This document shows, piece after piece, positions 11,716-52,112 of a stretch of DNA of 64,000 nt; the stretch's first letter is position 1; the number at the start of each line of letters is the position of its first letter. The DNA lies in the NCBI GenBank assembly GCA_029339505.1, contig JAQISU010000041.1, forward strand, positions 7,015,001 through 7,079,000. The letters run 5' to 3'. Below the pieces are notes generated by a model. It ran no database searches, had not been told where the DNA came from, and saw only the letters and a program-made list of their open reading frames with translations. This stretch comes from Unio delphinus. Lineage: Eukaryota; Mollusca; Bivalvia; Unionida; Unionidae. Both the position numbers and the translations under genes were made by a program.

Positions 11716-11723
11716 ACATACCT
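11716..11723 (+). repeat. left 8-bp target-site duplication ACATACCT
   Basis: Identical to 52105-52112 and directly adjacent to the tip of the left arm. Confidence 0.65.
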
Positions 11724-14134
11724 ATGGATAGCCGTCGCCGCCAAAATTACATTAAATTAAATGATCTGGTATGAAATCAAATGATTTAACCTAGCAAATG
11801 AAATGATCAACCCAGATACCAAATGATGTGGTGTCACCTGAAATAATTTAACGAACAAAACCGAATGATGCTTTCAAGTTTCAAATGACGTGGTATTAAA
11901 TGAAATGATCAAGTGTGAGATGAAATGATTTAACCCAACAAACGGAATGATCAATTCAGATTCCATATGATGTTGTGTGATATCAAATGATGTAGCATGC
12001 AATGAAATGATTGAACCCCAAAAACGAAATAATGAATTCAGATTTCAAATGATGTTTCGTTAAATGAAATGATCTGGTATTAAATAAAATGATTTAAAGA
12101 ACAAAACGGAATGATGATATATGCTTCCAAATGACGTGCTATTAGATAAAATGATGTAGTCTAACATGAAATGATTTAACTCAACAAATGAAATCATGAA
12201 TTTAAATTCCAAATCATCTGGTATTAAATAAAATGATTTAAAGAACAAAACGGATTAATGGAATCTGGTTCCAAACGATATATTATTAAATGAAAGTACG
12301 TAGTATGAAATAAAATGATTTAACTCAACAAATGAAATGATGAATTCAGATTCCAAATAATGTGATATTAAATTAAATGATTTAAATAACAAAACGTATT
12401 GATGAATTCTGCTTCCAAATGACGTAGTATTAAATGAAATTATGTAGTCTTGAATTAAATGATTTAACCCCCAAAAAAGAAATGATGTATTCAGATTCCA
12501 AATGATCTGGCATTAGATGAAATGGTCTGAAGAGCAGAATGGAATGATCAGCTCATATTCCAAATGATGTGGTATTAAATGAAACGTATTGAAAGTAAAC
12601 CATCTGATCAAACTACGATCAACTAGCGTAAATCCAAACAATCACAAGGGGGCGCTGTTATCTATGACGTATAATGTCAGCACCCCGAAACAGAATCGAC
12701 GGTCGTATTTACAGCATTCGCTGAGATTTTTGCATAGGACAGTTGCAGAGCAAAGCAAAGGCAAGTATTTCTTTTCGTCTTTTATAAACAAGAGCCACGT
12801 TTTCCAATCAGCATAAAATGATTTTATCCACATTAATGAATGTGCGTGTGTTTTTTTCTTTCTTCAAGTTCTGCGCTTTACTGCGCGAGTTTCTTCTGCT
12901 TCAACAAAGCGAGATCTATCAACTAAAGAGATTAAATCTTGATTTTATTTGATCATTATTAATTAACATGTTTAATGACCTTACACACTAAGCCAAAAAT
13001 GTGTTTCCCGTCACTTTTGGTATATTTTACATTACCGTCCCTACGTGCATACTCGTTATTCGTCCAAGGTTTATTTATTTATTTCTTTATTTATTTTAGT
13101 ACTGAATAATTTTAAGATAAAACTAATAACAGCGTTGTCTCCAAAATTGTATAATCCTGTCAGTTTTACAGGCTTCCAGATATCAAGAAACTCTGTGTAT
13201 ATGATGCTTTATTTCTTATATATTGGTCACTATAAAGGCGGATGTACTTTAGGAATGACATTGTGGTTTTTTTTGTGGCTATTATTTAAATGTATTACCA
13301 GTAAACGGTAATATATGGCTATATGTATATTAGAAGTAACACTGAAGAAACTATGACCATTAAAATATTAAAATATTAAATTGAAATAAAAAAATTTAAA
13401 TATAAAAAAAAAGTTTTTAAAATGATATGAACATGGAAGTTTATAACAGTTGATGATTAAAATTTACATGAACCTTGTGCATGCAACATTCGTGCAACAA
13501 TGTTTATCGATTTGCATACTAATTAAAAAGTTATTCTTTTTTAGTTTCTATTTATGTACACATTTCATCTTTTTTTCATAAGCCAAACTTTTAGTCTTTT
13601 ATCTTCCAATTTATATAAAACCTAGTACCAAACTAATAACTTTGTATTTTATAAGAATATCTAGTTTGAATGAATTATTAATGTCAGTTAGTTTCATAAT
13701 TCCATTCCAATTTCCATCTGCACATTATTTCTGGTGCGTCTACTTTTAATAAAAACGAAGATGGAACCTTCATGATAATATATGGTTTTGTAAAAATCCT
13801 TGAAAAATTGTGAAAGCAGAAAATATTTTACAAAAATCATAGAAACATGATCCTGGGATAATTCAGAAAGAAGAAAAGAAAAAGATTCCATTGCTGCTAC
13901 CTTTCTTTCGATATATGTTTCAACACTACAAAGACTTCCATATTTGTAAAGTTATATATGGTGAGCCCTTAGAAAGACAAACGGTCCACATCTCCATATC
14001 GATGAAACAAATCAACATGGAACGTGTATCAACCATTAGCATCTCTTGATACTTTAAGTTTGGGTCTATATGAAGTGCTACAACTTTATGGTGTTAAACT
14101 AAGTAAGAGAAACAAGCGAAACCGTAGAGTTTAA
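11724..14134 (+). repeat. left inverted arm of the 40-kb unit
   Basis: The outer ~870 bp consist of diverged units of roughly 100-120 bp with AAATGATTTAACCCAACAAA, GATTCAGATTCCAAATGATG-like and GGTATTAAATGAAATGATG pieces. The inner ~1.5 kb is non-repetitive and includes short frames (for example around 13045-13311) whose counterparts appear in the other arm. By eye the arms are well above 90 percent identical, with few indels. No transposase was found in either arm. Confidence 0.85.
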
Positions 14135-14180
14135 GAAAATCTAACTTTCTGCATCATTATCAGATTTATTATGTCAAGTA

Positions 14181-16449: not shown

Positions 16450-17830
16450 GTTATTGTATTGCTGTGTATTTTTAATTTTTCCAATGATTTAAATTCTTTG
16501 TTTTATTTTTTTCACAATTAGTCATAGTATGAATTTTTGTAAAAGGTAGATTTTTACACAATGGACATTTTGGCGATACTCTGACCATATGCCGTCGCAC
16601 TCCGAAGTCTCCTGTCAACCACGCATCATGCATGTATTTGAACAGGACACTGTTCATTTTAAGTGATTTAAGTCTGACCCAGTTTACACAGGCCCTATCC
16701 CAATCTACGGTAATGTGTTTCTGTTCTATATTATTTTTTTCCTTATTTATTGTGTGGTCTGTTATCCATTTGTATGTTGATTTTGTGTCAATTTCCCATA
16801 ATTCTTTTGCGTCCCTATATTTTAGTAACAATTATTTTATGGATCTTAATTTCCTTGGCATCTCTATTAACTTAACTAGATTATTGTTTTTGTATATGTC
16901 TGTTCTCTGCTTCATGGAGAATCCGTAGAAATATATATAGAGACCTTGCCAAGCTATTTTTTGACTCTGCTTTCAGTTCCTTAAACCTGTTTAAAATGTT
17001 GGTGTATTTAATTAGGGTTGGATTGGGGAGGCCTAGGCCTCCCCTCTTCTCTTCCCTGTATAGTGTTTCTTTGTTTATGTAGTGCATTTTAAAAGCCCAT
17101 AAATATTTGATAATTCCGTTATCTATGTTTTTAAGCGTTGCGTTTGATATGTCTAACGATTTTAATTTATAATTAAGGTGCACATACCTATAGTTTTTTG
17201 CTACTTGTGCCCGTTCCAAAAGGGATAGTGGCGTGAGTGCCCAGATTTTTATATTATCTTGTATTTTCTCCCTGATTTCTTTGAGATTTTTTTCGTTCTC
17301 ACTTTCCCCAAAATTCACTCCAAATGTTTTAACTCTGTCTTTAATAAAGGGAAGAGGAAGCCCATGTCGCTTACCTCTCCAGTAACCTAACTAAAATATT
17401 TCTGTTTTGCCGGGGTTTATTTTAGAACCCAACACCTTACCAAATTGGTTAAATTCCTTGAACAATTCATCATAGGAATTTTTTTCTTGTACAAAGTTTG
17501 TGCAATCATCATCATGTTGTAGCATTTTTACCTACTCTTTAATATTTGGAACCCTGATTCCTTTAATCGTATGGTTTTTCCTCATTTTAATACTAAGTAA
17601 TTCTATTGATATTACATATAATAGCTTAGATAGTCGGCATCCCTGCCTCACTGATCTTTTAATTTCAAATTTTTCCGTTTTTGTTCCATTTACCTGTACG
17701 CATGAGTTGATATTTCTGTACAAGGTTTTAGTCCAATTTAGAAAATTGTTTCCGAAACCAAATTTCTCTAGTGTCTTGTATAGATAGTTTTGTTCTAATC
17801 TGTCAAAGGCTTTTCCTGGTGTATTAGTAC
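16450..17830 (-). pseudogene. non-LTR retrotransposon ORF2, C-terminal part (decayed)
   Basis: Read on the minus strand. A frame at 17723-17532 has RSVRQGC, the reverse-transcriptase motif before the catalytic Y/F-x-D-D. A frame at 17318-16881 has W-x-L-T-P-L-S-L-L-E-R-A-Q-V-A, the post-RT thumb block, and GGLGLPNP. A frame at 16831-16472 ends in a C-P-L-C zinc-knuckle-like cluster with H and C. Frames are broken between blocks, so it is not active. A related copy lies at 20150-21540 on the same strand and another, reversed, at 46480-47560. Confidence 0.8.
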
Positions 17831-20149
17831 CATAGCACTATTCAGACCTTTGATATTTATGTACTCTATTATGGTTTGATGGTACCAGTGGAAATATGAC
17901 TCATGCACAGAGGGTTCTGATTGGTCAGCTACCATGTATAATGTTACATCTCTCTTCTTACAAAGAAGAAGGTTTTAATACACTTTATTAAACTGTCTAA
18001 ATTAATCATGAGCCATTATAACTAACATATCAAAACCAAGAGCGTCTTTGATAGCAAATATTACGGGGGGGGGGGGGTTGATCCTCGGTACTCTCCCCAG
18101 CACAACAGCTGGTTCAAGTTGATTGAGGAACACCGTCTGTTAGCCAATAGTGTCTACGATGGTGTAATGTTTTCCTTGTCCACCCATGAGTGTATTAAGT
18201 AATGAGTGTATTGTTGTATATTTTTTTATGAAATTTTTAAAAACGATAATTTAGATGACGGTTAATCTTTGTTTTGTTCATCAAATATAATAAAGTTTTG
18301 TTAACCACTAAGGAATTCAGACTGATAATACTCTCTATCACAAGTCAGAGCTAACTTGTGACATATATTCCCTACTAGAGCTGTAGAGAATACTGATTTC
18401 TTTACAATCTGATTCATGAACTTAGGATCGTACTCTTGTCCCATAGAACTATTAAGTTCCAGGCCAATTTCCTTTCCTTTCCTAATGTATATTATATTAA
18501 ATATTACCCAGTTGACTTTGCCAAAGTCATTTGTCCATTGTGTATGTATTTTTTATTTTTATTATGTTTGTTGTACAGTGTAGTTGTATGGACGGAACTA
18601 TCTAAAGTCATATCTTTTTTGAGTTATAAGACCATGTAAAAAAGTTTTATTGTGAAATTTTGAAAATTTGTTTTATAGTTACTAAAAAAAAGTGAAAATA
18701 AAAAACATAAACAATCGAATGGTGCAGTTTATTTAAATAGGTTATGTATTGGTGTTATCTAATAATTTTGTTTATATGCTGTGGCATTTCCAAAATATTT
18801 ATGTCTAGTAGCAATGTGTTTTTTTGTTGTTCATTCGGATATCCTATTCCATAGCGGTCGTTTCCATTTTAGCCAAATTAGTCTAGATTAGAATGTTTTG
18901 AAGTATCCGAGAGCATTTTGCACCAAAAGGTTTGATTAATCAATTTAAAGTCGTTTTAAAATAAAAGGTGTAGTTGTTAGAAATAAATTTAGTACAGTTG
19001 AAAGTAAACTGTTGAGTGATTTTTCATATAGTATGTTAATAAAACCTTGGCTTTATTATTTGCTTATTTGCTCTTATGTACCTTAGCACACAAAGCGAAA
19101 TGAGAGAAAGAAGAAGGAATAAAACTAAGCTTCACTTGTCTATGTTTATACCTACAGAGGGCATCACAATTATTTGGGGAGTTACTCAGTAGACTATTTG
19201 AGACGACTCATTATTTGTATTAGTTGGCATTTATTTTATCAAATAAGGTAATAATCTTTGTAAGTTGTTTAAGTAAAATTTATTTCTTAATTATTGAGTT
19301 ATTCTCCTTATTGTGTAAAGAGAAATTCTCAGTCGCTTGGTATTCTCATTGTGTAGTTTTTGTTAATTTGTAGTGTTTGGTCACATAGTCGTTTTAGTTC
19401 CGTATAGACTTAGGTCAAGCTATAGAGTGGAGAGGTAATCACACAATGAATACACAGACCACATCTGGCGTTATACAACTATCCGTTTGGCTTTCCAGAG
19501 TGTTATGCAATGTCATTATGTAATCCCGTCTTTAATAAATCAAGTCAAGGATTATTTCTTATAGTGTAATTTTGGGTTTTCATTATAAATTATTTATATT
19601 ATTATTTATTTTTATGGAGCTCAGATATAAGAAAAGAGCAAAGAGAAATCTGTTGCGTGCGTTGAATATAGTATATAATACAACATGACATATTATTTTA
19701 AACATACATGCTTTATAGAAAATTTTGAATTAAGAATTAATATTAAAAACCATTAATGCGAGTGAGAGATTCCACAATGATGTTACAGTTCACAACTGGT
19801 GTCTTACAACAAGCCATTTGGCTATCCAGTGTATTGTGTAATTCCAACCCACCCCTAAGCTTTTCAGTAAAGTTTTAAAGTTAAAAATTCCATAAAGTTT
19901 TATTTCTTTTTGCTATTATATTAAATTCATGCCAAATTGAATTAAACAAATAATTTTTGGTTATGTGTGCTTTTTCCATGAAAGTGAAGTCTCTCATGTT
20001 CCATATTTTTTTATGATACTGAATTTTGTTTATGATTTGCTGTAAATTTTTTATTTTATTATTTTTACCCAGGTATGCTCCTAGTACTTTTACATATTGT
20101 TTGATTATTTCCTTTGGAAGTGTTAAATATTTATTTTGTGTCCAATCTC
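17831..20149. other. AT-rich DNA with no recognised gene
   Basis: Contains a G10 run near 18064 and two diverged copies of a segment with ACAACTATCCGTTTGGCTTT- and ACAAGCCATTTGGCTATCC-like cores near 19480 and 19805, probably an unidentified repeat. Nothing else was recognised. Confidence 0.5.
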
Positions 20150-21540
20150 CAATAATAAATATTTCTGTTTTTTCCTGATTTAGTTCAGACCCAGATGCAT
20201 TACTGAAGTTTTTAATTGGTTAATTAGATTATCATATGAGTTGTTGGTTGTTATGAAGTTTGATATGTCATCTGCATGTAGAAAGGTCTTGGTTTGTTTA
20301 TTCATATTAGGGAGTGTGATGCCTTTTATTAGTTCATCATTTTGGATAGAGACATTTATTGTTTCTATTCCAATAACATATAGTAGCATTGATATTGGGC
20401 ATCCCTGTCGAACTGACCTTGTGACAGGGAAAGCAGTAGTTTGTGCCCCATTAATTTGGATTTTAGATTTGATTTGGTTGTACAATATTTTAATCCATTT
20501 AATGAAAGTCTGACCAAAGAAGTTTTTCTAAAGAGTTTTAATTATGAAGTTTATTTCAATTTTATCAAAAGCTTTCTCTTGGTCAAAGAGTATCAAGGCA
20601 CCACCAAAGTTATTATTTTACATGTATTCAATAGTTGTTTTAATAGATATATATTGTCAGATATTTGCTTTCCTAATGCTCCACAAGATTGGTTATTCAT
20701 GGTTATGTCACTTAGTGTGTTTTTTAGTCTATTTGCCAAAATTGTACTTAATATTTTGTAGTCTATATTAAGTAGAGATATGGGTCTCCAGTTTTTTAAT
20801 TCAGTAGTTTCTCCTTTTTGTTTATATAGGAGAGTGATTAAGCCTGTCCTCAATGAGTTATTCGTTATATCACAATGAAGGATGTAATTATTTAGGTTTT
20901 GCAAAATTGGTAAAAGTTGAATTTTAAATTTTTTATAAAATTCTGCATTTAGTCCATCTAAACCAGGAGTTTTATTTTTAGATATACTATCAATGGCTTC
21001 ATCTATTTGTAATATTCCAATAACATTGTCACACATTTCTTTATCTTCTTCAGAAATAACAGGGAGTATTACATTTTCTAGGTATTTTTTTTTCTTCAGG
21101 TATGTGTTTACTATGATATAGCTTTGTATAGAAGTTTTTAATGTTGTCCATAATTTCTTTTTTTTTGTCTTCTGTAATAGAGTTATTGATCTTCAGTTTA
21201 GTTATTTGTTTTTCATTTCCATTTTTTAGTTCTTCTCTCCTATATATTTTCCTAAATTATAAATATCATGGTAAAACCTAGCTCTTTGTTTATCTCCATC
21301 ACTTTTATATTTCTTTAAGTTATCTAATGTTTTTTTACATTTGGTTTTCTGTTCGTTTGAAGTATTTGTGTTTTCTAAAATTCTCTTACATTCTTTTTCT
21401 AAAATCTGATTATTTTTACTTTGAAGTCTGGAGTATTTCTGGCATATTGATTTAAATTTTTCTTTTAAATTATCCCAGGATTTTAAATTTTCAAAATAAA
21501 AGGAATCTATTTCATATTTAATTTCAATTTGTAGTTCTGG
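20150..21540 (-). pseudogene. non-LTR retrotransposon ORF2, reverse-transcriptase part (decayed)
   Basis: On the minus strand a frame at 21036-20593 carries SKNKTPGLDGLNAEFYK, LYKQKGE and NWRPISLLN (RT fingers and palm). A second at 20485-20180 has RSVRQGCP and LHADD, the latter with the two catalytic aspartates. The two frames are shifted against each other. Upstream, to about 21540, lies an AT-rich, lysine-rich region like the linker between endonuclease and RT. It ends about 450 bp before the virus-like element. Confidence 0.8.
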
Positions 21541-21985: not shown

Positions 21986-21990
21986 CAAGG
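21986..21990 (+). repeat. 5-bp target duplication CAAGG (left)
   Basis: Matches 37026-37030 directly outside the other end. Polintons usually make 6 bp; a sixth base differs (G left, T right). Confidence 0.8.
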
Positions 21991-22256
21991 AGCAGCAGAG
22001 AGGGTGAATCCTACAACGTTTTTAGACAAAATTTGATTGAAATCCTAAAACGAGCCGTCTTATAATCTTATTTTAACCAAAAAAAGGCGAACCCTACAAC
22101 GTTTTCAGACAAAAAATTGATTGAAATCTCCCTATGAAATCATTTTAACTAAAAAAATGAAAACGATTTTTTTATCAATTTTGGTCGCAACGATGTGGTC
22201 ATCCACCCTCTCTGCTGCTTAGTGATTTCATCACTGGGTTAATAAAAATAATAAAT
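21991..22256 (+). repeat. left terminal inverted repeat of the virus-like element
   Basis: Pairs with 37025-36742. The TIR is itself bracketed: the tip reads AGCAGCAGAGAGGGTG and its inverted copy CACCCTCTCTGCTGCT stands at 22204-22219. Between them lie two imperfect direct repeats of about 75 bp (each with CCTACAACGTTTT and AATTGATTGAAATC-like pieces), then a TCAATTTTGGTCGCAAC block. After the inner bracket come TTAGTGATTTCATCACTGGG and an A/T stretch still shared with the right end. Confidence 0.9.
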
Positions 22257-22287
22257 AAATTGATCGAGTCTTTAGGATGAAAATCAT

Positions 22288-23637
22288 TTATGATTTTACA
22301 AACAGACTAATCGCTAACACCTCTTCTTGTAAATCAATCAGATTATTTGACTGGTCGGTGAGTTTGAAATTAATTCTGGTTAATGAATTATTATGGCATC
22401 GCATGTAGACAGGATTAATTGGGTTTTCAATAATTAGGAATCCTGGAGGAGCTGTTGGTGCAAATGAATAAAGAATATATCCTTGCTGAGCTTGATTTGA
22501 TCGTTCGAGATTAATTTGATAGCTTCCTTCGATAACATCACACACTAAATTGAGCGCAATCACCGATGAAATATTCACGTTGAACGGAGCGATATGCCTA
22601 CCACCACCATCTGGATCATTATTATGTTTGAGGAGGACAGTTGAGTCTGATTTTTGTAGTGCTTTGATATCGGTTTTAACAATTTTTGCTAATTCATCAG
22701 CGTTGTATTTCGGAAACTTGAAATTACGCAGATTGTCTTCTGTGATATTGTAATCGGTTAGGAATCGTTGTTTATTGTCGCTGTTGTCATTAATTATTGT
22801 TTGAATAATTAGTTCATAGATATATTTCATGTCCGATATAAGCTGATTTATTATTTCAACGTGTTTTTGCGATCTTGTTTTCCGTAGTTGTTCTAGTTGT
22901 GTGTCATATAATTGTTTAATCTCATTAAAATAACCACGGACGTCAGTTAGCGTAAATGAAATAGTAACAGATGAGTCGGTTGTTCTTTTAATGATAAAAT
23001 CCCATTGCAATGTGTCTTTGTTGGTGAATATAAATCTATCGGCGATTCTTCCTTTTCTTATATCAGATAAATTATCTCGATAACTGGGATTGATTTCATG
23101 ATATGATTGTACATCCGTGGTTAAGTCGGTGGTGGATTTTTCCGGTGGTTTTTCAGGCCATCCTAGTACGGTTCTAATAGAACTTTGATAGATATCTACG
23201 ACGTATCCTTCTGTGCTTATCTCAATTGCGGATGATAGTGTCGGCTCATGAACTGTTATAGCGATTTTTGATTCTTTTCCAGTAATCGATTTTATTCTAC
23301 GCGCGAATTCATTATTGATTTGTTCGATTTGGTATGACCCTGTTGGTATCGAAACGACGTTCCAGTCTGGTGTTTCGTCGGGTTTATTCTTATTTGCAAA
23401 CACCAGTGAATTATTCGGTTGTTGACCACCAAATGATTTTGATCTGATATTAGGCCAACTGTGATACATTCGTAGTTTTGCTAGCGCTATCTCCTTCACT
23501 GGGACCGGAGAGGGGAAATTCACACTGAATTCTGGATTCGTTGATGTTATTGATATCATGCTTGTTTGTACTGGGTTCGTGTTCTCCACTATTTGTTGAA
23601 GTAATTCCTGCGGTGTTGTCATTGTTATTATACTCAT
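22288..23637 (-). CDS. penton-like / minor capsid protein, 449 aa
   Basis: The N-terminal third has a WNVVSIPTGSYQIEQINNEF block, a P-x-G-S-Y-x-I-x-x-I-N pattern recurring in virion proteins of Polinton-like elements. An LGWP block follows around residue 155. The middle (about 235-310) is predicted helical with charged heptads. The C-terminal ~110 residues look beta-rich (PPGFLIIENP, SLTRINFKLTDQ) and end in SLFVKS, like a jelly-roll. It is the last gene of the minus-strand virion block and lies next to the left TIR. Penton identity is inferred from length, position and the beta-rich end. The first nine residues are repeated at the head of the duplicated fragment just upstream. Confidence 0.6.
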   Translation of the reverse strand: MSIITMTTPQELLQQIVENTNPVQTSMISITSTNPEFSVNFPSPVPVKEIALAKLRMYHSWPNIRSKSFGGQQPNNSLVFANKNKPDETPDWNVVSIPTGSYQIEQINNEFARRIKSITGKESKIAITVHEPTLSSAIEISTEGYVVDIYQSSIRTVLGWPEKPPEKSTTDLTTDVQSYHEINPSYRDNLSDIRKGRIADRFIFTNKDTLQWDFIIKRTTDSSVTISFTLTDVRGYFNEIKQLYDTQLEQLRKTRSQKHVEIINQLISDMKYIYELIIQTIINDNSDNKQRFLTDYNITEDNLRNFKFPKYNADELAKIVKTDIKALQKSDSTVLLKHNNDPDGGGRHIAPFNVNISSVIALNLVCDVIEGSYQINLERSNQAQQGYILYSFAPTAPPGFLIIENPINPVYMRCHNNSLTRINFKLTDQSNNLIDLQEEVLAISLFVKS

Positions 23638-23788
23638 GTTGTATTTCTAATTTTGGTATCGAGGAATCATAAATACTGACCATTACTGAGAACTCACAAT
23701 CTGGTAATGTTGATATTATTGAGATCATTTTGTTTTTTGGGTTCGTGTTTTCCGATTCCATCGGTGTTGTCATTGTTATTATACTCAT
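23450..23788 (-). pseudogene. duplicated fragment spanning the membrane-protein end and penton-gene start
   Basis: A 112-codon frame begins with MSIITMTTP like the penton-like gene, then repeats an EFS-x-MVSI-[FY]-DS segment and a KLE-x-QHEYNNNDNT segment from the end of the upstream 181-aa protein, and finally runs out of frame into the penton-like gene. It reflects a tandem duplication of about 170 bp (units near 23517-23690 and 23691-23860). Probably not a separate gene; it could be translated as a short peptide. Confidence 0.5.
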
Positions 23789-24239
23789 GTTGTCGCTCTA
23801 ATTTCGATATCGCGGAATCAAAAATACTGACCATCGCTGAGAATTCACTATCTGATATAATCGTATTATCGAGTGACGACGATATCATCAATGATAATTG
23901 CGAATATGCGGTTGATGCAATATGAAATTGAAGTAAGTAATTCTGCAGTTTACTCTGGCTGCATGATGATATCTTTTTTGCTATCCCGGTTGATATACCC
24001 CCGATTGTAGCCACCGCAGAAATGAAAATTGGAACTACGACCGGGGCAATCATTGTAACCGATGCAAGTATTATTCCGGCGCCAGTGAGAACGCTTGACA
24101 CCGAGTATATAATAACATCAATTGCGGTGATTCTTCGTCGGTATTTTTTTATTTTTATTTGATACTCCTCAGTGAGGGTTTTGAGTCTATTCTGAAATTC
24201 TCTGACCTGATCATAGCGACATTGAGTTGATGAAATCAT
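23694..24239 (-). CDS. two-helix membrane protein with coiled coil, 181 aa
   Basis: Residues 10-37 form a charged helix. Residues 39-86 are a long hydrophobic hairpin, two membrane helices joined at IAP. The segment ISDSEFSAMVSIFDSAISKL (about 127-146) matches an I-S-x-x-E-F pattern I recall from a small protein of similar build in other animal Polinton-like elements. The last 35 residues are N/D-rich. Likely a virion or membrane-associated protein; function unknown. Its C-terminal part has been duplicated downstream. Confidence 0.55.
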   Translation of the reverse strand: MISSTQCRYDQVREFQNRLKTLTEEYQIKIKKYRRRITAIDVIIYSVSSVLTGAGIILASVTMIAPVVVPIFISAVATIGGISTGIAKKISSCSQSKLQNYLLQFHIASTAYSQLSLMISSSLDNTIISDSEFSAMVSIFDSAISKLERQHEYNNNDNTDGIGKHEPKKQNDLNNINITRL

Positions 24240-24286
24240 TGTTATTTTAAAAATACTAGCGTTTTCAATTGTGAAATCCTTTCAAT

Positions 24287-25492
24287 TTAGTTATTTACTT
24301 CGCATATGAATTCTAAGCACCAGGATATTTTTGATCTAATCGTACTATCAACCGCGACAATCTCAAATTCTTCTTCACCCCGGATAATTACTGTTGCGGT
24401 GCCACCAAAATAGGTTTTACCGCTTACGATGATATCAAATTGCTTGTCAGAGATTAACGTCATCCTGTAGATACCATGGGGCCACTCCCCGATATTGACT
24501 TTCAATTTAGCATTAGAGTCTTTTATCCAATCAAAGGTCCCATGCTTTACCCTTTCAGATTTTTCTTTTAGTTTAGCAATATCGTCATAAACGTCGAGAT
24601 AGGTTTTATTGATTTCGGTATATTTCATTATCGTTCCATTCCGGCGTTTAAAAAATGAAACCAAAAGGAGGCCGAATCCAAAACCTTGTTCGGTATTATA
24701 ATGCCCGTTGAGTTCAGAATATGTCGTCGTGATATTGTAACTTTCAGAGCCCTCAAAGAACTTATTAGCCATTTCGCTGATGCGTTTTTGTTCATCAATA
24801 GCTTTTTTAACTTCAGCGAGAGTCATGCCAACCACAAGCGGGGTTCCAAAGAATCTACCAACAATGTCGTTAGTGGGTTTTTGATCTTCTATTAGTTTAG
24901 AAATCTCGAGATAATTTGCCTTGAATTCTGAAGCAGTCATTATCCTTCCAGCTTCCTTGTTAGCGAAGAATGAATTCAACAAGTCTTTAATTTCAGTGAG
25001 AGTCATGCCAACCACAAGAGGGGTTCCAAAGAATTTATGTATAACATTTTTGCGAAAAGAATTATAACCTCGTATATGATCATCCAGCTCACTGCCGTGG
25101 GTGGTAATCTTGTTGTCTTGGGTGGTAATCCTGTTGTCGTTGTCGGTAATCATGCGGTTGTTGGTGATAATCATCTTGTTGTGGGTGGCAATCGCGTCTG
25201 TGATCGTAGACACAAGTGCGCCTGGTTTAAGTCGTCCGTCGTTGGAATACAGCGCAATAGAGTTTTCAGCGGCGTCGCGCTGCCGTATCAAAATGTCATT
25301 CAATGACACATCACTGGATTTCAATTTACCCTGTTTGTCCTGAAATACAACTATTTCGTTCGGGTCAACACTTGTTAAATTTAACGTCTCAGCGATTTCA
25401 TCTTCAATTAGTTTTTTTACATCCTTGACAGAATCAGGTGGTGCAGTGCCATCGGGTTTGGGTTTCAAAGATCTCCCCCAAATATCAATCAT
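24287..25492 (-). CDS. fiber-like protein, 401 aa
   Basis: The N-terminal ~95 residues include LNDILIRQRDAAENSIALY. Residues 97-140 are a short-period repeat (ITTNNRMITDNDNRITTQDN type) that would form a trimeric coiled coil or triple beta shaft. A segment FFGTPLVVGMTLTEIK is repeated with two changes (FFGTPLVVGMTLAEVK) about 65 residues later. The last ~90 residues are beta-rich and aromatic, like a small receptor-binding head. This shaft-plus-head plan is that of viral fibers. No homologue was recognised, so the fiber call rests on architecture and on its place between the membrane protein and the protease. Confidence 0.5.
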   Translation of the reverse strand: MIDIWGRSLKPKPDGTAPPDSVKDVKKLIEDEIAETLNLTSVDPNEIVVFQDKQGKLKSSDVSLNDILIRQRDAAENSIALYSNDGRLKPGALVSTITDAIATHNKMIITNNRMITDNDNRITTQDNKITTHGSELDDHIRGYNSFRKNVIHKFFGTPLVVGMTLTEIKDLLNSFFANKEAGRIMTASEFKANYLEISKLIEDQKPTNDIVGRFFGTPLVVGMTLAEVKKAIDEQKRISEMANKFFEGSESYNITTTYSELNGHYNTEQGFGFGLLLVSFFKRRNGTIMKYTEINKTYLDVYDDIAKLKEKSERVKHGTFDWIKDSNAKLKVNIGEWPHGIYRMTLISDKQFDIIVSGKTYFGGTATVIIRGEEEFEIVAVDSTIRSKISWCLEFICEVNN

Positions 25493-25516
25493 GTTATTGT
25501 AAAACTCTTTCTCTCT

Positions 25517-26098
25517 CTAAAATCGTTTTTGACGACTTCGTCGAAAAATCTTCGATTTTCTCCAGCGATTACTAGTGTATTCATTAACGACAACATGTGG
25601 TGGTTTTCCGCTTGGGTTACTCAAGGAGTTAGAAATAGCGTCAAGGACATTTAATACTTCGCTGCCACATATTGGTGGGTCAATCATCGTTTGTGTTGGT
25701 AGCGTAGAATACCAAGTCTTCATTGGAAGGGTTTTTATATACCGCATAAACTCTTTTGGTGGGGCTAATCCATATGAATCAAAATAGACAATCCCACGTG
25801 GATCAATAGCGTATGCAACCCAGTGAGTTCCAGGTCCGGTGCTGTTATCGAGATTAATAATACCTGTTTCAGTTTTGTTTGGTTGATGTGGTAATTGATC
25901 TTTCATAAAAACACCTCTGAAATTTTTAATCACTAGTTTTTTAGCCGCATCCATTAAATCAAAATTGGACATAGGAACCATCGATTCCTCAATTAATAAA
26001 TCGTTCCTGGTAGTCTTAGACCCTTTCCGCTGTACCACGAATACGGGGTTCCTGGTAGTCTTAGACCCGATCCGTTCACGGATCTTCCGCTGTACCAC
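25517..26098 (-). CDS. adenain/Ulp1-type cysteine protease, about 150-193 aa
   Basis: The catalytic set of the adenovirus-type maturation protease is visible: H92 in GTHWVAYAID, D107 in YFDSYG, Q136 for the oxyanion hole and C144 in PPICGSEV. In adenoviruses and Polintons this enzyme trims capsid precursors inside the particle. All key residues are intact. The first ~38 residues are not part of the family: they are copies of a GSKTTRN-type peptide created by tandem repetition of the end of the upstream gene. M40 or M43 is therefore a likely original start. It sits between the fiber-like and pX-like genes. Confidence 0.9.
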   Translation of the reverse strand: MVQRKIRERIGSKTTRNPVFVVQRKGSKTTRNDLLIEESMVPMSNFDLMDAAKKLVIKNFRGVFMKDQLPHQPNKTETGIINLDNSTGPGTHWVAYAIDPRGIVYFDSYGLAPPKEFMRYIKTLPMKTWYSTLPTQTMIDPPICGSEVLNVLDAISNSLSNPSGKPPHVVVNEYTSNRWRKSKIFRRSRQKRF

Positions 26099-36737: not shown

Positions 36738-36741
36738 AATC

Positions 36742-38558: not shown

Positions 38559-41500
38559 TCAAACTTCCAAAACCTCGTCTACAGAATCTAAAGCATGCAA
38601 ATATGGTTCAATGTCAGAAAGGTTAGCTACGTTAATTCCACGCATTTTGGCATTGAAAGAATGCAACTGTTCTTCATTAAAAGTAGCTCTATTGATGGCA
38701 CGTCGATATTGTCTTCAACGCTTGGCTCAGGTAACGGTGCATCTGGATCCATTCCATACTCTGGTAGAGCGTCCTAAATGAAGAAAAAAAATACTATTTT
38801 GTCTGCAATGTATTCATTTATTTTCTTATAATAAAAAACAATTCAAAGACACAATTAAGTTTGGCTATTAAGAAATGAATTCGTTTAAGAGAATAAGCTA
38901 CGGTGGCTCAATTTTAACTTCCAAATATCACCAACAAATGTTAAGCTAAAAGAATAGCATATACTGTCTTGCAGAACCGACAAAAAACGAATTTGTAATT
39001 TGATCTCTGCATGGTAAATTGGTGAAAGTTTTCCGTGCTAAAAGAAATTGTTCCTCGATATTGGACAAACAGTTTTCTGAAACTCTATAAAATTTGTCGA
39101 ATACTGTCTGTTATTTTCTATACAGTAGATATGTTACAATCAGATGTCCTTTAATTGCTATTTTTATTGACATGCATGGAATTTTGCTTCTTTATATTGT
39201 TATTGTAATGTTTTGCCGATTGTAAATTTGGTATGTTTTATGATCTTGATATAATATATTTTGAAAATACAAGTACTTTCCACTTAACGAAGTAGCACAT
39301 TGTGAAGTTGTAGTCATTTGTTATGACTCTGTTAATCACATACACTGCTAATTAGAAGTATACACACACAGACATTGATAAAATAATGGTAGGCATTTTA
39401 AGGAGCGTACAGATTGTATAGTATCCAGTTTTAAATCGCTTACCAATATGCCACATTGCTTAATATGCGACAAGCTTCTCACCTGATCTAATTCTTTGAA
39501 GTATTCGTTAGCAATTACTTTATTCTCGTTAAATATACGCTGCAGTCCAAGTATAAATAGCTGGCAGGGAGTCTTGTTGTTCTCAGTTATCAATTTATGA
39601 TTGCTCCATGAATTCATAAACTTTAATAGTCTGTCATTTATCACATTTTTGTACACATAATGCAAGCAGAATACATGTTTCTCCGAATCTGGATTTTAAA
39701 AAAAGCCATTGACTTCCAATGACACAAAAAGCTCATAAAATAAAGAAAGCACAGCATTATACACATCACGCCATAGCCTCTATATCCTCGAATTATGGAC
39801 ACTTTTTCCAGTTATATAACTTCCCCTATTAAGGCCCCGACGAGGGTGTGAGAGCATGTACTGAGCAACTTCACGGTTTTCCACACCCGTGTTCCCTCTT
39901 ACTCGGGAAGGCAGGCCCCATCTGGAAACGGCTTCAGTGAAATGGTTTAAAACGGTTGAAGCTCTATTATCACAGTTGCTAGCTAGGTAGACAATAAGCC
40001 TTGTGAAACCATCGATGCATCCGTGTATTACAAAACGCCATCTGCAGAATATATGTATATCGCTTTCCGCGTTATATGAGACAAGAAAATGTGTTTTGTT
40101 TTTCCTGCAAGGGATGGTTATAACAATGATAACACCACACGTATTGTTATCTAATATAAAGTAGATCACTGACATATTGCTTGATCTCTCACTCTCGAAT
40201 GTCGTCCATCATAGCTTGCACTCCACATATATAAGTGTTAAATGTAAACTGCAGTTATTAAGATATTTGAAAGTAGCTAAGAAATGCATTATAACTGAAG
40301 AAAATCTCCTATTAAGTTTGGTAAGCAACTGAATGTCAACACATTCTTGATTCATTCTTAGTAAACATTGTATTGATCAGATATTTGTAAGATTCATAGT
40401 TATTGGTGTCATTTCTTAATTAAACATGAATACTAAATGACCAAATAACATATTGATGTCCATATTGATGTCCATATGAATATCAAACATAGTCTCCTCA
40501 AAAATATGAAATAATATTTCTCTCTTGTCTTTATATTTATAACCAATGCAGGCAAATTGTTTTTCCGCCTGTGCTTTGTTTACACAAATAGAGTAATTCG
40601 TTGCATTACTTGGAATAACAGGCGAGTTTCAACTGTACCAATGTTTAAAGCTGTTTCTGTTCCAAGCTTATTAATATTTATCTCCCAAATATGTTAAAAT
40701 CCTAAATATCGGATTAAGCTAATACTTACATTAACAAGTAACTAGCTTCCATTGATGGATCTGATGTTGTGATGTCCTTGCCGAAGTTTCATGATATACG
40801 TCCGAAACTATTTAAGAGAACTGATTGAATTATTTTATGCTGTAACTTTTTTCCTTAAATGTGTTCAGAATTAAAAGGTTTTATCTTGGAGATGCCAAGA
40901 TATAGAAAATTTGGAACACAATTATGTGTCTTTTAATTTTAGAATTTCGGGACCTAGGAAATTAAATTAACAAAACGTTGGGTACTGACAATTAGAGATT
41001 ACACACAACTTTAATGTTTGCGCATGTCATGTAACTGAGTGGAACATTACCGTATCAGTTTGTGATTGCCATCAAAGGCAAGAGGGGACGGAACTGAATA
41101 AACCCTTCGCTCTATACACCGTAACTGCCTCAATTGTTGTCCAACCGGATCTACAGTTCTAACTGCTCTCCTTATTCTATCTCTTTGTACATGGATACCT
41201 TGTGAAATGAGATGACCTTCGATTGTCTTTAAACCTAAAGAAACAAGTATTTAAAACATGACTACAAGCATTGAATTCATAAAAAACTTATTTATTTATT
41301 TGCAGATATAACATTTACAGTCTGTATACAATTCCAGGATATAATTAAGGATCTAAATGAATTAAAATTGTATTGGTCTCTTTCAAGAGAATGACAGTTG
41401 CAAACCTAAACTATTTGTTTGCCATACAATGAGGTTTTCATTTTGGGGGCAATTAAAATAATTTACTATCTAAAATTGTATTTATATAAATATATTTATT

Positions 41501-42857
41501 ATATTCTAAAAAGCTATAAATGTATCCAAACATTGGGAAGCGTACAATTATTCAGAATGTGAAAGTCTCTATAAAGTCGTGATATAAGTTGCACACTTTC
41601 GCCTTAAGAGTTAATGATAAATGCTTGTGTAAATAAGCATACTAACACCTATAAGCACGCTTTTGTTGTATTTTTCAAGCTTAGTAGTGTCCAGATCGCT
41701 GCAGAGGTAGCAGACCACTTGACTGAATTTGAAATTTGTTAGGATAAATATGTGCAAGATCGTCTGTTTGTTGAATCTGATTAACTTCGGACCAATACTT
41801 TCAAGACAGTCAAATGCCTTAAAGCTTTACATGCAAATCGAACTGCACTTGCAAGTCTATGACAATCACCGGCAGTTAAACGATATCGTCACAGTTTATG
41901 AAAGCACTGATCATGTTTTAAAGGAGACCAGAAACCAATGGAAATATAGAATAATAATAACAACACAATAGAAGGAAACTTTATTCTGAAGTATCATATG
42001 TACCACAATGCCAATATTTAAATATTGGTATATGTTCTATGAGCTGAATCTCCGTGATCTTGTGTGCAAAATTTCCGCACCTATTCGGTTAATCTCGTGA
42101 TGTGACGTCATAGTAACGACTCCAGCATCCCGACTGACGATTTTGTATTGCTTACGGGTGTAAATAGCACATTAAAAAAAGGCTGTGGACAACACTTGTT
42201 TTCTCTTTTCGAAACGATAAAGGCATAAAGAATGTATTGATACTACAAGCGCGTCTATTTCAATGCAACACAATACAACACTCCGTGCTCATTACATTTC
42301 ACAAAGGAATGCTACGAGAGGGATCACGAAAAATAGCAGATCTATACTAAAAGTTAAAACTGTTCCAGACATACCAATGGATATTTTAAATCATGGGAAA
42401 AGTGTCGAACGTATATGTTACGAAAATAGACAGAAGGCCGAGTAAATGACCACAAAATGCAACAGTCAATTCCAGATATTTTATCTTCACCATCATTGCT
42501 AATAAAAAATATAACAGCCCGTCACCTATCATGATGATGAAATGAGTAAATGTATTTTCAAGATCACAATCTAAATCATATCACCACTGTCCAATGTGAA
42601 ATTGAGATCTGACTTTAATCAAATGGAAACTTTGTTTAAAAAATAAGATTCTTAACCCCTGACACGGTATTGTTTCGAGAAAACATAATTTTCAGCAATC
42701 TTTAAAAAATTAAAAAAATTATTTAAAACCAAAAACTTTCAGCCCATGCCTGTTACACGTATAATATTCTGTAATGATTGGAATTGATATAAACAAATAT
42801 ACCTTGGGCAGTTTAAATAGCAGTGATTAAACGAAAAGAGGTCAGATAAAAATCATG

Positions 42858-42964
42858 CACTATCATTTTGTTGGCGTTTCGAATCAAACGGGACTTTTGT
42901 AAGTAACATAGTCGCCATATTGGCATAGGCAAGTCTGTTTTAAGCAACAGGGGTAATGTAGTTC
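42858..42964 (+). repeat. 107-bp direct repeat, copy 1
   Basis: Near-identical to 44758-44865 (about two changes). It begins CACTATCATTTTGTTGGCG and ends GGGGTAATGTAGTTC. It lies in the second intron of the integrase pseudogene. Confidence 0.9.
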
Positions 42965-44757
42965 GCATATCTCGGGAGAAGATTCAACTTTTAAAAGTGC
43001 AAACCAAATCTGGTTTCTTCATGTTTGTCTCGCTTGCCATGTTTTGTTTACATTTGAGGAACGTCTAGCATTGCGTCAGGGGACCACATGATCTGTTGAC
43101 TCATAAATATCGGAAAAACTCGGCAATTTACGGAATCGTGGTATCTTCAGCCCATGATATTGAATTTATAAACAGTACAGTCGAATTAAAATTTGTCAAG
43201 AATTACATACATGAATGGAATTTTTTTTATTTCTGGTCTCCTTTAATATGTTTAAATACCATTCTTGTTGTAAATAAAAATGAGTTTTTAACACAAGTCA
43301 GTTATTGTATAATATCTTTTAGTCGGCGATTGGGCTATGTTGGGCAAAGTCACTGTATGGAAAAATGACCAGGAGTCATTACAAAGCCAGAGTCGGTAAT
43401 TGATCTTTAAAAACAGTTGCGGAAAAACAAAGCCCCATCCACAGTAAAAATGTCAAAACTTATATATCAATATTCAAATCAATGAACATATATTACAACT
43501 ATTTTACTGTACACAGAGAAGTCATTTAGTTGGAGAAAAAGAACTCTTACCTGAACGAGGAAAGTTGTTGATTATTGAATGCACCATCGATATTAACTCA
43601 TTTTCACTTATATTACTGAATCGTATCCCATGAGTCAAACGTAAGTTTGCTAGTCTCCGCTCTACAGCTCTCCTGCTTACCCCAAGCAAACTTGCCATAT
43701 TTCCTGTTGTAAAGTAATTTTCTGTAGAAAAATTAATACAGACGTTATTGAAAATAATTGTCCAAAGCACGAGAAAGATTTTCCATAGAAAGGTTTATGT
43801 TATGTGGATATAATATAGAGAATATAAATCGGTTAGTAAGGTCTAAAACACAACATTTCAGCGTACATAAAACATTAACAATCACTATATACACATTTTA
43901 ATTATATGTGTATGATAATACAAAATTTGCACCAGGAAAACGTTGGAGCCCAAGTGCAATCACGATGGTTCAAAAATCATCTGAGTTCGTGGGCAAACGT
44001 TTGTACACATCATAAGGTATATAGTATAGTTATTATTACACGTTGAACACTTAGCCATTTAACTTGTATTCCAAATATCCAACGAATAAAGTTTCAAACA
44101 GGAAAATAAAATAATAATTTTCAAACTGCGCGTGTAATTCTGATGCATGAAAGCAGCTGACATAAATAAAATGCATGAGGTCGAAGCACGATGAGATGGC
44201 CCAATCACGTGTGACGTTTTATTAAGTGATGCGAATAACATATGAATATAAACTGTCAGACATTTTTTTTTTATAATGTTTTACAGCATTTGGTAATAAA
44301 AATATTATTTAATTAAAACGAAAATAACAGCAATGGTTAATTTCAGACGCATAGGATATATGTTTTTAATAATATCCTACATTTTTTTTATATACCTTCC
44401 ACTTTATGAAAGTTTAGCGTTATGAAATAATTCCATTAATTTTGAAACAATGCACTACATGAAAGAATCATGCAAACAAACCAAAGAAAACACAATTTCT
44501 CTTATAATGTACGGTAAAAGTATAGATTGTAGAATTTCATATTAATTCTTTGACAGTACTATATATTAAATTTCAATACATGGTTCTTTAAGGACTAAAA
44601 TATTGGTACATGTTCCCATTTACTTGCAAACCTCCCAACACACACACACACCGATGTTAAAACGAAAAGGCATCAACATGAAGCAAAGCAAAACATTAAC
44701 AAAACTTAGTCATTTTATTCATAATTTCTAACCTGACTGTCACCTTAGAGTGCCATT

Positions 44758-44865
44758 CACTATCATTTTGTTGGCGTTTCGAATCAAACGGGACTTTTGT
44801 AAGTAACATAGTCGCCATATTAGCATAGGCAAGTCTGTTTTTAAGCAACAGGGGTAATGTAGTTC
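44758..44865 (+). repeat. 107-bp direct repeat, copy 2
   Basis: Partner of 42858-42964, located in the first intron of the integrase pseudogene. It overlaps a short minus-strand frame (44985-44740) that was not recognised. Confidence 0.9.
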
Positions 44866-45629
44866 ACCGTCTTTAATAATTTCAGTAATTCCGGAAATTT
44901 TTGGTGTTACATGTCTCTTACATGTGTGTACAAGAGTTGTCCTTTTTATTTGCTCAATTTGGTCACTAAATATTAAACATGTCATGTCTTACAATATTGA
45001 AAACTATCAACGCTTTAAAATGATATTTGCTTGCATACGGAAGCAGTATCAAATATTGAACATGAGCATCAGAGAAATAAAGAAGTTGGAAGCAGTAAAC
45101 ACTGAATATGTGTTAGGGGATAACAATGGAGCATGTACATATAATACAGTAGAAGATGTCTTGAAAGACCAACTCTTTTACCCCAAAGTTTTGGTCTCTC
45201 AAGACAGGTGGTCTCTCATAACAGGTCACGATGTTATATAATCAATAAATTTGTGCACTGAGATTGTGGTCTCTCAAGACAGGTGGTCTCACATAGCAGT
45301 GGTCTTTCAAGACAGGTTTTACTGTATACAGCATGTTAGTGTGTCAGTTGAGTTAAGAAATTACCAGTGAAAAATTGTAGTTGTTCCTTTCTTCTGTCAT
45401 AAAGAGGTCTGCCCCTATGCCCAGTATAGACTTGCGAGGCTCTGTACTGGTGGTCTTCGCTGACTGGCATAGAATTAATATCGGTTTTGTCAAGGATACT
45501 ACGAGCTTGTCCAAGTAGCTCAATCACTTCCACAGGCACTGATACATCTTGCAGGGAGTCCTCCATTAAAATCTCAATTCTACGTACCTGAGTCCTTATA
45601 ATGTTCGCTGCTTCAATCCTATTTGACAT

Positions 45630-46342: not shown

Positions 46343-46479
46343 ACGTTCGTATGTTATTTTTAAAAAATCACTTTTAAATCACAAGATTGCTGAAAACATA
46401 ACTCCAGACTATGTGGAATGCTATCTATGCTATTAAACTGACAGCAATTAAAATTATAAGTACGAAATAAAAATGCTAC

Positions 46480-47560
46480 ATCATGCAGGCGATTATACGA
46501 ACTTTATTAAAGACCAAAATTCCTTTAAACACCTAGTGAAGGAATTTGACAAATTTGGGAAGACCTCTGGGTAAAAAATAAATCATGAAAAAACTTTAAT
46601 ACTGAAAATAGGGAGCTGGAGAGGAAATCACTCAGGATTACCACCACACTTTAAAGAAAAAGAAAGAGTGAATGCATTGTACATTTATTTTTGGATAAGA
46701 GAAAAACAAGAAAACTATAAAAATATGAAACAGAAATTATAAACGAATGTGAACACCTGGGCACTTACGCCATTATGTCAAATGGAACGGGCCCAAGTGT
46801 CCAAAACCTACTTGTACGCGTATATAAATTTTATTACCAAGTCTATTGACATAGAAAATAAAAATTTAGAAAGAACTAGATAAGGAGATTATTAATTACA
46901 TATGTGATTTTAAGACCCGCTACGACAAGAGGGAAACTTTATATGGAGTACAAGAGAGGAGGACAAGCACTCTCCAACCCCAATTTTGATAAAGACTGCA
47001 AATATTATAAATAGATTTTAAAAGATTACAGTAATACCAACATCAAATTTGGGAGAGAATATACATCTACTGGTTTGGGTTCACAATGTGAAACGGATTG
47101 GGGGGGGGGTCATTTATAAAAATAATAAACTTGTATATAAAACAAAATGAAATACCAAGAAAACTGAGACATATCAAAGAAATACTAACCAAATATAGGG
47201 ATATAAAAGGTTTATGGGACCAGGAGGAAAAACTAACATATTGATACATTAAGAGAGGGAGTCAAAACAACACTAAATGTAAAGTAGAACATGAGAGCAT
47301 AGAGATTAACTGGAAAAGAGCATGGGGGCACTGGACCAAATTACGCTCCATAAAAATACAAAGCCTCTGCTTGAAATACATGCACAATGCATGGTTGATA
47401 GGAGAGGTAGCAGTGAGACGTGACATGGTCAGAGTATCGACAAAATGTCATCTGTGTAAAATAAGCCACTTTTAGTAAACTACACACAATGATACAGTGC
47501 GAGAGCAGGAAAACATGTAAATTGAAAGTGATATAAGAAATAAGCAAAGGGAGGAGATAT
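46480..47560 (+). pseudogene. non-LTR retrotransposon ORF2 C-terminal part (decayed, third copy)
   Basis: The plus strand repeats elements of the minus-strand copy at 16.5-17.3 kb: an APLRHYVKWNGPKCPKPTC-like thumb region, an EERRTSTLQPQF-like block, and a GEVAVRRDMVRVSTKCHLC zinc-knuckle-like end near 47400-47460. Many stops. A G9 tract near 47100 interrupts it. Confidence 0.65.
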
Positions 47561-49699: not shown

Positions 49700-52104
49700 T
49701 TAAACTCTACGGTTTCGCTTGTTTCTCTTACTTAGTTTAACACCATAAAGTTGTAACACTTCATATAGACCCAAACTTAAAGTATCAAGAGATGCTAATG
49801 GTTGATACACGTTCCATGTTGATTTGTTTCATCTATATGGAGATGTGGACCGTTTGTCTTTCTAAGGGCTCACCATATATAACTTTACAAATATGGAAGT
49901 CTTTGTAGTGTTGAAACATATATCGAAAGAAAGATAGCAGCAATGGAATCTATTTCTTTTCTTCTTTCTGAATTATCCCAGGATCATGTTTCTATGATTT
50001 TTGTAAAATATTTTCTGCTTTCACAATTTTTCAAGGAACTTTACAAAACCATATATTATCATGAAGGTTCCATCTTCGTTTTAATTAAAAAGTAGACGCA
50101 CCAGAAATAATGTGCAGATGGAAATTGGAATGGAATTATGAAACTGACATTAATAATTCATTCAAACTAGATATTCTTATAAAATACAAAGTTATTATTT
50201 TGGTACTAGGTTTTATATATATTGGAAGATAAAAGACTAAAAGTTTGGCTTATGAAAAAAAGATGAAATGTGTACAGAAATAAAAATTAAAAAAGAATAA
50301 CTTTTTAATTAGTATGCAAATTGATAAACATTGTTGCACGAATGTTGCATGCACAAGGTTCGTGTCAATTTTAATCATCAACTGTTATAAACTTCCATGT
50401 TCATATCATTTCAAAAACTTTATTTTTTTATATTTAAAATTATTTATTTCAATTTAATATTTTAATATTTTAATGGTCATAGTTTCTTCAGTGTTACTTC
50501 TAATATACATATAGCCATATATTACCGTTTACTGGTAATACATTTAAATAATAGCCACACAAAAAAACACAATGCCATTCCTAAAGTACATCCGCCTTTA
50601 TAGTGGCCAATATATAAGAAATAAAGCATCATATACACAGAGTTTCTTGATATATGGAAGCCTGTAAAACTGACAGGATTATACAATTTTGGAGACAACG
50701 CTGTTATTAGTTTTATCTTAAAATTATTCAGTACTAAAAAAATAAATAAATAAATAAACCTTGGACGAATAACGAGTATGCACGTAGGGACGGTAATGTA
50801 AAATATACCAAAAGTGACAGGAAACACATTTTTGGCTTAGTGTGTAAGGTCATTAAACATGTTAATTAATAATGATCAAATAAAATCAAGATTTAATCTC
50901 TTTAGTTGATAGATCTCGCTTTGTTGAAGCAGAAGAAACTCGCGCAGTACAGGGCAGAACTTGAAGAAAGAAAAAAACACACGCACATTCATTAATGTGG
51001 ATAAAATCACTTTATGCTGATTGGAAAACGTGGCTCTTGTTTATAAAATACGAAAAGAAATACTTGCCTTTGCTTTGCTCTGCAACTGTCCTATGCAAAA
51101 ATCTCAGCCGAATGCTGTAAATACGACCGTCGATTCTGTTTCGGGGTGCTGACATCATACGTCATAGATAACAGCGCCACCCTGTGATTGTTTGGATTTA
51201 CGCTAGTTTATTCGTAGTTTGATCAGATGGTTTACTTTCAATACGTTTCATTTAATACCACATCATTTGGAATATGAGCTGATCATTCCATTCTGCTCTT
51301 CAGACCATTTCAACTAATGCCAGATCATTTGAAATCTGAATACATCATTTCTTTTTTGGGGTTAAATCATTTAATTCAAGACTACATAATTTCATTTAAT
51401 ACTATGTCATTTGGAAGCAGAATTCATCAATCTGTTTTGTTATTTAAATCATTTAATTTAATATCACATTATTTGGAATCTGAATTCATCATTTCATTTG
51501 TTGAGTTAAATCATTTTATTTCATACTACGTATTTTCATTTAAAAATATATCGTTTGGAACCAGATTTCATTAATCCGTTTTGTTCTTTGAATCATTTAA
51601 TTTAATACCAGATGATTTGGAATTTAAATTCATGATTTCATTTGTTGAGTTAAATCATTTCATGTTAGACTACATCATTTTATCTAATAGCACGTCATTT
51701 GGAAGCATATATCATCATTCCGTTTTGTTCTTTAAATCATTTTATTTAATACCAGATCATTTCATTTAACGCCACATCATTTGAAATCTGAATTCATTGT
51801 TTCATTTTTGGGGTTCAATCATTTCATTGCATGCTACATCATTTCATATCACACAACATCATTTGGAATCTGAATTGATCATTCCGTTTGTTGGGTTAAA
51901 TCATTTCATCTCACACTTGATCATTTCATTTAATACCACGTCATTTGAAACTTGAAAGCATCATTCGGTTTTGTTCGTTAAATCATTTCATGTGACACCA
52001 AATCATTTGGAATCTGGATTGATAATTTCATTTGCTAGGTTAAATCATTTGATTTCATACCAGATCATTTGATTAATGTAATTTTGGGGGCGACGGCTGC
52101 CCAT
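49700..52104 (-). repeat. right inverted arm of the 40-kb unit
   Basis: Reverse complement of 11724-14134. The AAATGAT-type tandem units are now at the right (about 51235-52080), with the same order of units. Identity is high throughout, with scattered substitutions and small indels, so the arms have either stayed similar by gene conversion or are young. Confidence 0.85.
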
Positions 52105-52112
52105 ACATACCT
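52105..52112 (+). repeat. right 8-bp target-site duplication ACATACCT
   Basis: Identical to 11716-11723 and adjacent to the tip of the right arm. Confidence 0.65.

Follow-up and report, generated by a model that had tools for sequence, protein, structure and literature searches.

A 40-kb insertion with long inverted arms in a mussel genome is probably a dead IS3EU/GingerRoot-type transposon enclosing a Polinton-like element

The IS3EU/GingerRoot elements are a minor, little-studied superfamily of DNA transposons. In the parts of PMC10045372 that describe them, complete IS3EU families always have TA..TA termini, usually have 6-bp target-site duplications and are placed beside IS481-type transposases; in rust fungi, the relevant part of PMC12730594 gives TAYGG..CCRTA ends and 6-bp duplications. 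Two oyster satellites, CgiSat35 and CgiSat47, are classed as DNA/IS3EU in a portion of PMC8268682, and IS3EU-linked tandem repeats are therefore already known in a bivalve. Here we analyse a 64,000-nucleotide stretch of Unio delphinus DNA (contig JAQISU010000041.1, positions 7,015,001 to 7,079,000; hereafter the window), in which a very large, long-armed insertion at 11723-52105 can most probably be assigned to this superfamily, with the missing enzyme supplied by a broken gene in its interior. The likeness to IS3EU/GingerRoot lies in the TA..TA ends (here TATGG..CCATA), the 6-bp duplication and an integrase-type DDE transposase (PMC10045372, PMC12730594, both as far as their excerpts go). The difference from the fungal families lies in the arms, which here are 2.4 kb long and carry a phased array, whereas those families are described, in the same excerpts, with terminal inverted repeats (TIRs) of >30 bp; Repbase contains 45 IS3EU families.

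Three other systems invite comparison. Long inverted arms made partly of tandem repeats are shared with Foldback, Galileo and Tetris elements. These elements depend on P-superfamily or unknown enzymes and make 8-bp duplications, in contrast to the integrase-type enzyme and 6-bp duplication found here. Transposon ends around a large virus-like element recall Teratorn, in which a piggyBac transposon with TIRs of 18 bp and an active enzyme is fused to a herpesvirus (PMC6431247, in part); in the mussel, however, the resident enzyme is broken and the virus-like element is bounded by ends and a duplication of its own. That virus-like element resembles Polinton/Maverick elements and Polinton-like viruses in its double jelly-roll (DJR) capsid, A32-type ATPase, rve integrase, weak adenain-like protease and terminal inverted repeats. 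It departs from them in a 5-bp CAAGG duplication, where Polintons have 6 bp (PMC10045372, in part), in a long protein with a RecD2/Pif1-like helicase and no Pfam match to PolB, and in terminal repeats that are only ~92% identical in aligned bases. Among the literature matches listed, taken by titles and the beginnings of abstracts and with most subscription papers outside them, none reports a long-armed IS3EU element in a mussel, which is no proof of novelty; the word IS3EU is absent from the main text of the bivalve transposon survey PMC10294476.

In a global alignment of the left arm (11723-14134, plus strand, tip TATGGATAGCCGTCGCC) with the reverse complement of the right arm (49700-52105, minus strand, end ...GGCTGCCCATA), 2342 bases match, 59 are mismatched and 8 gap events occur. 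This amounts to 97.5% identity over aligned bases, and the differences are spread evenly along the arms. BLAST pairs 11723-14139 with 52105-49695, so that arm homology reaches the tips, one base beyond the boundary placed earlier. A sequence-only reading of the locus had described inverted arms aligned to their tips, and apart from this shift of one base outward on each side the description holds. The left tip reads AAAA CATACC TATGGATAGCC... and the right tip ...GGCTGCCCATA CATACC TGTC; the two copies of CATACC, at 11717-11722 and 52106-52111, are identical, and the inner arm ends have no duplication of their own. The window has no unknown bases, and in its self-comparison the arms match nothing except themselves and each other. 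By its anatomy 11723-52105 is thus confirmed as one insertion; the same reading had proposed a single insertion of a DNA transposon with long inverted repeats, and the arms and flanking duplication bear this out. Two other arrangements were rejected. That each arm might be a separate element was suggested by CCGTA at 14122-14126, which resembles a tip near the inner end of the left arm; arm-to-arm homology continues past it and no duplication lies there. An inverted pair at 16522-17530 and 46468-47492 was considered as an extension of the arms, but its copies are 63% identical and lie beside reverse-transcriptase remnants.

The length of the duplication bears on the family. The 8-mer ACATACCT starts at 11716 and again at 52105, and it had been read as an 8-bp duplication. 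Its presence at both tips stands (four occurrences on the plus strand of the window; chance at one given position ~6e-5), but as a duplication the flank reads better as 6-bp CATACC, in which case ACATACCT consists of CATACC together with, at each tip, a single base of the element and a single flanking base that matches by chance. The IS3EU end motif and duplication length were taken from the literature before the tips were re-read. Because the published IS3EU ends and duplications match the tips once the boundary moves out by one base, leaving TATGG...CCATA around a 6-bp CATACC as in the TA..TA, 6-bp pattern of IS3EU/GingerRoot, the 6-bp version is preferred and appears to be the best reading of these letters. 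The window holds 104 TAYGG and 91 CCRTA sites, which form 3978 pairs 60 bp to 60 kb apart; three of these are flanked by a perfect 6-bp direct repeat, where chance alone would give 0.97, and only 11723/52105 among the three has matching termini (27/30, against 15/30 and 7/30). A one-base choice of boundary can thus make a 6-bp IS3EU duplication look like an 8-bp hAT/P signature.

The interior contains a transposase gene in broken form. Pfam places the integrase core PF24764 (rva_4) on the minus strand at 39780-40208 (3e-34) and 39351-39695 (9.1e-14). When ten relatives were compared with the window by tblastn, they covered the protein from residue ~34 to the C-terminus in five ordered blocks on the minus strand, 45584-38562; roughly the first 33 residues were not located by homology. 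The four intervening introns are all GT..AG, and the exon joins stay in frame (block edges read by eye; joins marked by a slash): ...FFTG/ENYFT..., where the joined codon gives E, ...PRSG/LKT..., ...HKLIR/WRF... and ...ELDQ/DALPEYG.... The collinear blocks and in-frame introns therefore point to one spliced transposase gene, predicted as a minus-strand PF24764 integrase-type gene of five exons. Exon 1 spans 45365-45584 as far as homology reaches (tblastn, P0139 41%, 2.0e-08; P0105 32%, 9.1e-07; donor site read); exon 2, 43551-43721, covers a helix-turn-helix-like region (P0086 90%, P0105 49%; splice signals on both sides); exon 3, 41051-41234, recovered as tblastn blocks, covers the region of the first catalytic D and is three residues shorter than the relatives just before it; exon 4, 39483-40041, carries the broken catalytic core PF24764 (Pfam; 79% to Sinanodonta P0086); and exon 5, 38562-38773, gives the C-terminal part (P0110 90% and 77%, P0136 77% and 82%, each in two frames; acceptor TTTAG).

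The gene is broken. One stop in exon 4 (39780-39782) sits at the place of the catalytic E and a second lies at 39696-39698; the second catalytic D is replaced by N (39891-39893); and exon 5 has a frame break near 38679-38681 relative to the Sinanodonta proteins. Set against the columns invariant in the ten relatives, it has a substituted catalytic D, a stop in place of the E and missing residues ahead of the first D; together with the second stop and the shift of frame, this leaves the resident transposase dead. The earlier statement that the mobilising enzyme was unknown is consequently wrong: an integrase-type gene, complete except for its first ~33 residues, lies inside.

A 300-residue read-through of the catalytic exon region, with X at stops, matched 336 proteins, of which 120 were listed. 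Among the matches listed, the closest is Sinanodonta woodiana P0086 (79%), the nearest relatives are three S. woodiana proteins (79-86%), and further named sources are corals, nemerteans, echinoderms, a brachiopod, a tunicate and fish. A tree of 27 rows, all of them PF24764 proteins, joins the copy from the window to P0086 at 100/99 support, with 38% of the columns filled in the row for that copy. Two full-length PF24764 relatives match the NCBIfam models IS481 (7.5e-12 and 8.6e-9) and IS3 (2.2e-7 and 3.2e-4), in each case below the model cut-offs; such matches fit an IS3EU-type enzyme and are not specific to it. What separates IS3EU from other integrase-type families is the ends and the duplication length. 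A profile search of the PDB with the transposase placed a dihydroorotase chain first (0.0011), a match outside the core that we attribute to chance; integrase cores followed at 0.05. For the coral relative P0105, structure prediction reached a mean predicted local distance difference test score (pLDDT) of 58.7. In a collection of viral contigs, none of 14 candidate stretches was confirmed as a transposase relative. Four contigs (L001-L004) filed as metagenome-assembled genomes (MAGs) of sponge bacterial symbionts encode an animal-type PF24764 transposase, and are probably host contamination. Two introns of the transposase gene contain a 112-bp direct repeat (42854-42964 and 44754-44865, 97.3%), with a TTCGAATC stretch that we take to resemble the B box of a short interspersed nuclear element (SINE).

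The outer ~870 bp of each arm, about its outer third, are filled by regularly spaced sites. A walk along the left arm found 42 AAATGAT-type cores at 11760-12608 (plus strand), in steps of 20 or 22 bp with one of 23, and 38 of the 42 keep 5 or 6 of the 6 core letters; the same walk gave 43 sites at 51203-52069 in the right arm (minus strand). The walk rule is loose, yielding up to 36 sites (mean 8) in shuffled sequence, and the periodogram is the firmer test. It gave a period of 20.55 bp in both arms, with a power of 31.3 on the left and 30.4 on the right, whereas 150 dinucleotide shuffles never exceeded 7.0 and the inner arm reached 2.3. Tandem units of 144 and 82 bp in the arms are close to multiples of this step. 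As each site takes up about two helical turns, all of them would lie on the same face of the helix, and we infer that they may bind transposase; ~42 sites per arm, at two turns each, offer an opening for a direct binding test of this transposase class. The inner arm gave no match to phage records.

Ends, duplication length and the PF24764 gene together make it very probable, in our estimation, that a large DNA transposon belonging to the IS3EU/GingerRoot superfamily inserted once to give 11723-52105. Several points weigh on the other side. The assignment is drawn from one copy of the element and takes the PF24764 protein as a putative IS3EU transposase. That the resident transposase bound these arms is something we infer. 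The integrase of the nested Polinton-like element matches the IS481 and IS3 models about as well as the two PF24764 relatives do (4e-12 and 1.3e-6). TA..TA ends with a 6-bp duplication were not found in the four sponge contigs bearing related genes, and the tip pattern of the element had no match in the viral contig collection. The flank letters themselves fit two readings, in which the tips start with ATGG next to an 8-bp duplication or with TATGG next to one of 6 bp; the 8-bp version is slightly simpler by spare matches, needing one chance match instead of two, and taken alone these letters leave an 8-bp duplication possible for this single copy.

An 8-bp duplication would suit a different transposon (hAT, P/Galileo, Merlin, Zisupton or foldback) served by an enzyme in trans, with the integrase gene an unrelated nested remnant. 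The identity of ACATACCT on both sides agrees with this, as do the long repeat-built arms, which are reminiscent of Foldback elements; the integrase gene also sits between two AT-rich pairs of short ends with 5-bp repeats (21458/49326 and 25927/47704), which look fortuitous. Yet, as the sequence-only reading had itself observed, no transposase matching an 8-bp duplication is recognised: Pfam scans of 100 of the 116 interior open reading frames (ORFs; at least 50 aa) and 7 of the 20 arm ORFs (at least 40 aa) at E up to 0.01 gave no transposase of an 8-bp family, hAT, P and Galileo included, and neither did scans of 20 longer ORFs at E up to 0.1. The integrase gene, moreover, keeps its five exons in order, and the scan for terminal repeats brought up no pair nearer to it; moving the boundary by one base yields the IS3EU end motif together with the expected 6-bp duplication. 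We regard such a transposon as improbable, and the affiliation with hAT, P or Foldback/Galileo elements once suggested for the locus gives way to IS3EU, which the ends and the 6-bp duplication fit.

The second major component of the insertion is a nested element of 15,035 bp at 21991-37025. Its terminal repeats, AGCAGCAGAGAGGGTG..., agree at 16/16 positions and are flanked by CAAGG at 21986-21990 and 37026-37030. Pfam recognises in it a DJR capsid domain (5.7e-16), an A32-type ATPase (8e-13), an rve integrase (3.7e-08), PLA2-like (4.3e-12) and HNH (1.2e-14) domains and a superfamily 1 (SF1) helicase (7.1e-12), together with a weak adenain-like protease match (0.0017) below the Pfam cut-off. 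Since it combines capsid, ATPase, integrase, the protease match and its own repeats, we classify it as Polinton-like, and the ends and 5-bp duplication mark it, on sequence grounds, as a separate element. Its terminal repeats, 21991-22256 and 36742-37025, differ at 21 of 256 aligned bases with 9 gaps, even though the majority of its genes are open, and the ends may not be equalised during replication.

The helicase gene of this element (31194-34617, ~3.4 kb) is broken in at least two places, by a stop and a frame change; in relatives it is one long protein, of ~1170 aa in the closest. The relatives number 65 proteins, among them sequences of Sinanodonta, a coral and glomeromycotan fungi. Profile searches of the PDB returned Pif1-type helicases (8.3e-06 to 8.9e-04) and RecD (0.018), and no polymerase was present among the 19 matches; neither the ORFs scanned nor four helicase relatives gave a Pfam PolB match. 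The first half of the relatives' consensus has, by eye, what we take to be polymerase-like motifs, which no family model confirms, and its tail looks HNH-like, with weak HNH matches. Just upstream of the helicase homology lies a 90-bp tandem repeat of coding length (30732-31097; ~30 residues, K/R-rich). Among the viral contigs, 0 of 2 candidate stretches were confirmed as capsid relatives and 0 of 71 as helicase relatives.

If the insertion is an IS3EU-type transposon, its history may be reconstructed as follows. The transposase would have bound the long arms, likely through the phased sites of the outer third, and the element would have been cut and pasted into CATACC. After insertion the transposase gene would have decayed in place, and LINEs (long interspersed nuclear elements) and later the Polinton-like element would have landed in the dead transposon, bringing it to 40 kb; without the Polinton-like insert and one CAAGG copy it measures ~25.3 kb. 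Divergence between the arms amounts to 2.46% substitutions, with 8 indels. At an age corresponding to this divergence, ~20.9 breaks would be expected in 12 open frames of the nested element (9420 bases), with 9.3 of the 12 hit, and none of 60 simulated runs kept all 12 open; these frames were chosen for being open, which biases the break count. The 12 frames and the helicase cover ~85% of the 15 kb, and few broken genes can therefore hide there. The transposase, in turn, is interrupted by two stops and one change of frame, three breaks within ~1.35 kb of coding sequence, where ~3 are expected at arm age. Open nested genes beside a decayed transposase suggest that the Polinton-like element is probably much younger than the arm divergence and landed in an already decaying transposon. 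Two cautions apply. Arms of a cut-and-paste element need not start identical, so that arm divergence does not date the last move. The nested terminal repeats diverge more than the arms do (21/256 versus 59/2401, Fisher p 1.1e-5), which points the other way, unless the ends of the Polinton-like element differed at the start.

Both cautions lend something to the view that the Polinton-like element is cargo, the whole 40-kb unit having been moved, in a partnership like that of Teratorn, by an IS3EU transposase that acted in trans: the arm divergence is compatible with the full unit having jumped recently, and the nested repeats are the more diverged. The outer ends of the IS3EU element do flank the virus-like element, and Teratorn is a published transposon-virus fusion (PMC6431247, in part). 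Nevertheless, the virus-like element has terminal repeats and a 5-bp duplication of its own and so inserted independently, the transposase found in the interior is dead, and no functional link is seen between the two. We consider such carriage unlikely, and a recurrent partnership, in which an IS3EU element with long phased-site arms would harbour a Polinton-like virus and its ends, mobilised in trans, would move the 40-kb unit with the virus, seems equally doubtful. Of the full virus-like cargo proposed by the sequence-only reading, the virus-like element itself is present as nested content, but it has its own ends and duplication and looks younger than the arms. A dead transposon can serve as a landing pad and later resemble giant mobile cargo. 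Least probable is an assembly artefact or rearrangement, with arms from two insertions or a mis-joined palindrome: long inverted repeats do assemble poorly, but the 59 differing sites and 8 gaps indicate that the arms are not one sequence copied by the assembler, and an exact duplication flanks them outside while their inner ends have none.

The interior also holds remnants of two or three LINE reverse transcriptases at 16.5-21.2 kb, including one at 16522-17837 (minus strand; RVT_1 4.9e-07 at 17535-17837) and another at 20183-21192 (minus strand; RVT_1 2.8e-07 and 8.7e-06); the sequence at 46.5-47.5 kb, related in inverted orientation to the first of these, is a probable relative of them. Of the interior ORFs scanned, none could be recognised as a host gene, and the Rfam and tRNA scans gave no matches. 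On the left, the element adjoins a HEPN_DZIP3 gene (10778-11554) that is 76-84% identical to the top ten of 20 listed matches, all from S. woodiana, followed by Potamilus streckersoni at 67%, an order of matches that makes a unionid freshwater mussel the most likely host; many similar copies of this family lie on one chromosome-sized Sinanodonta contig. On the right, a tandem array with a unit of ~28 bp begins at 62808 and extends off the end of the window at 64000.

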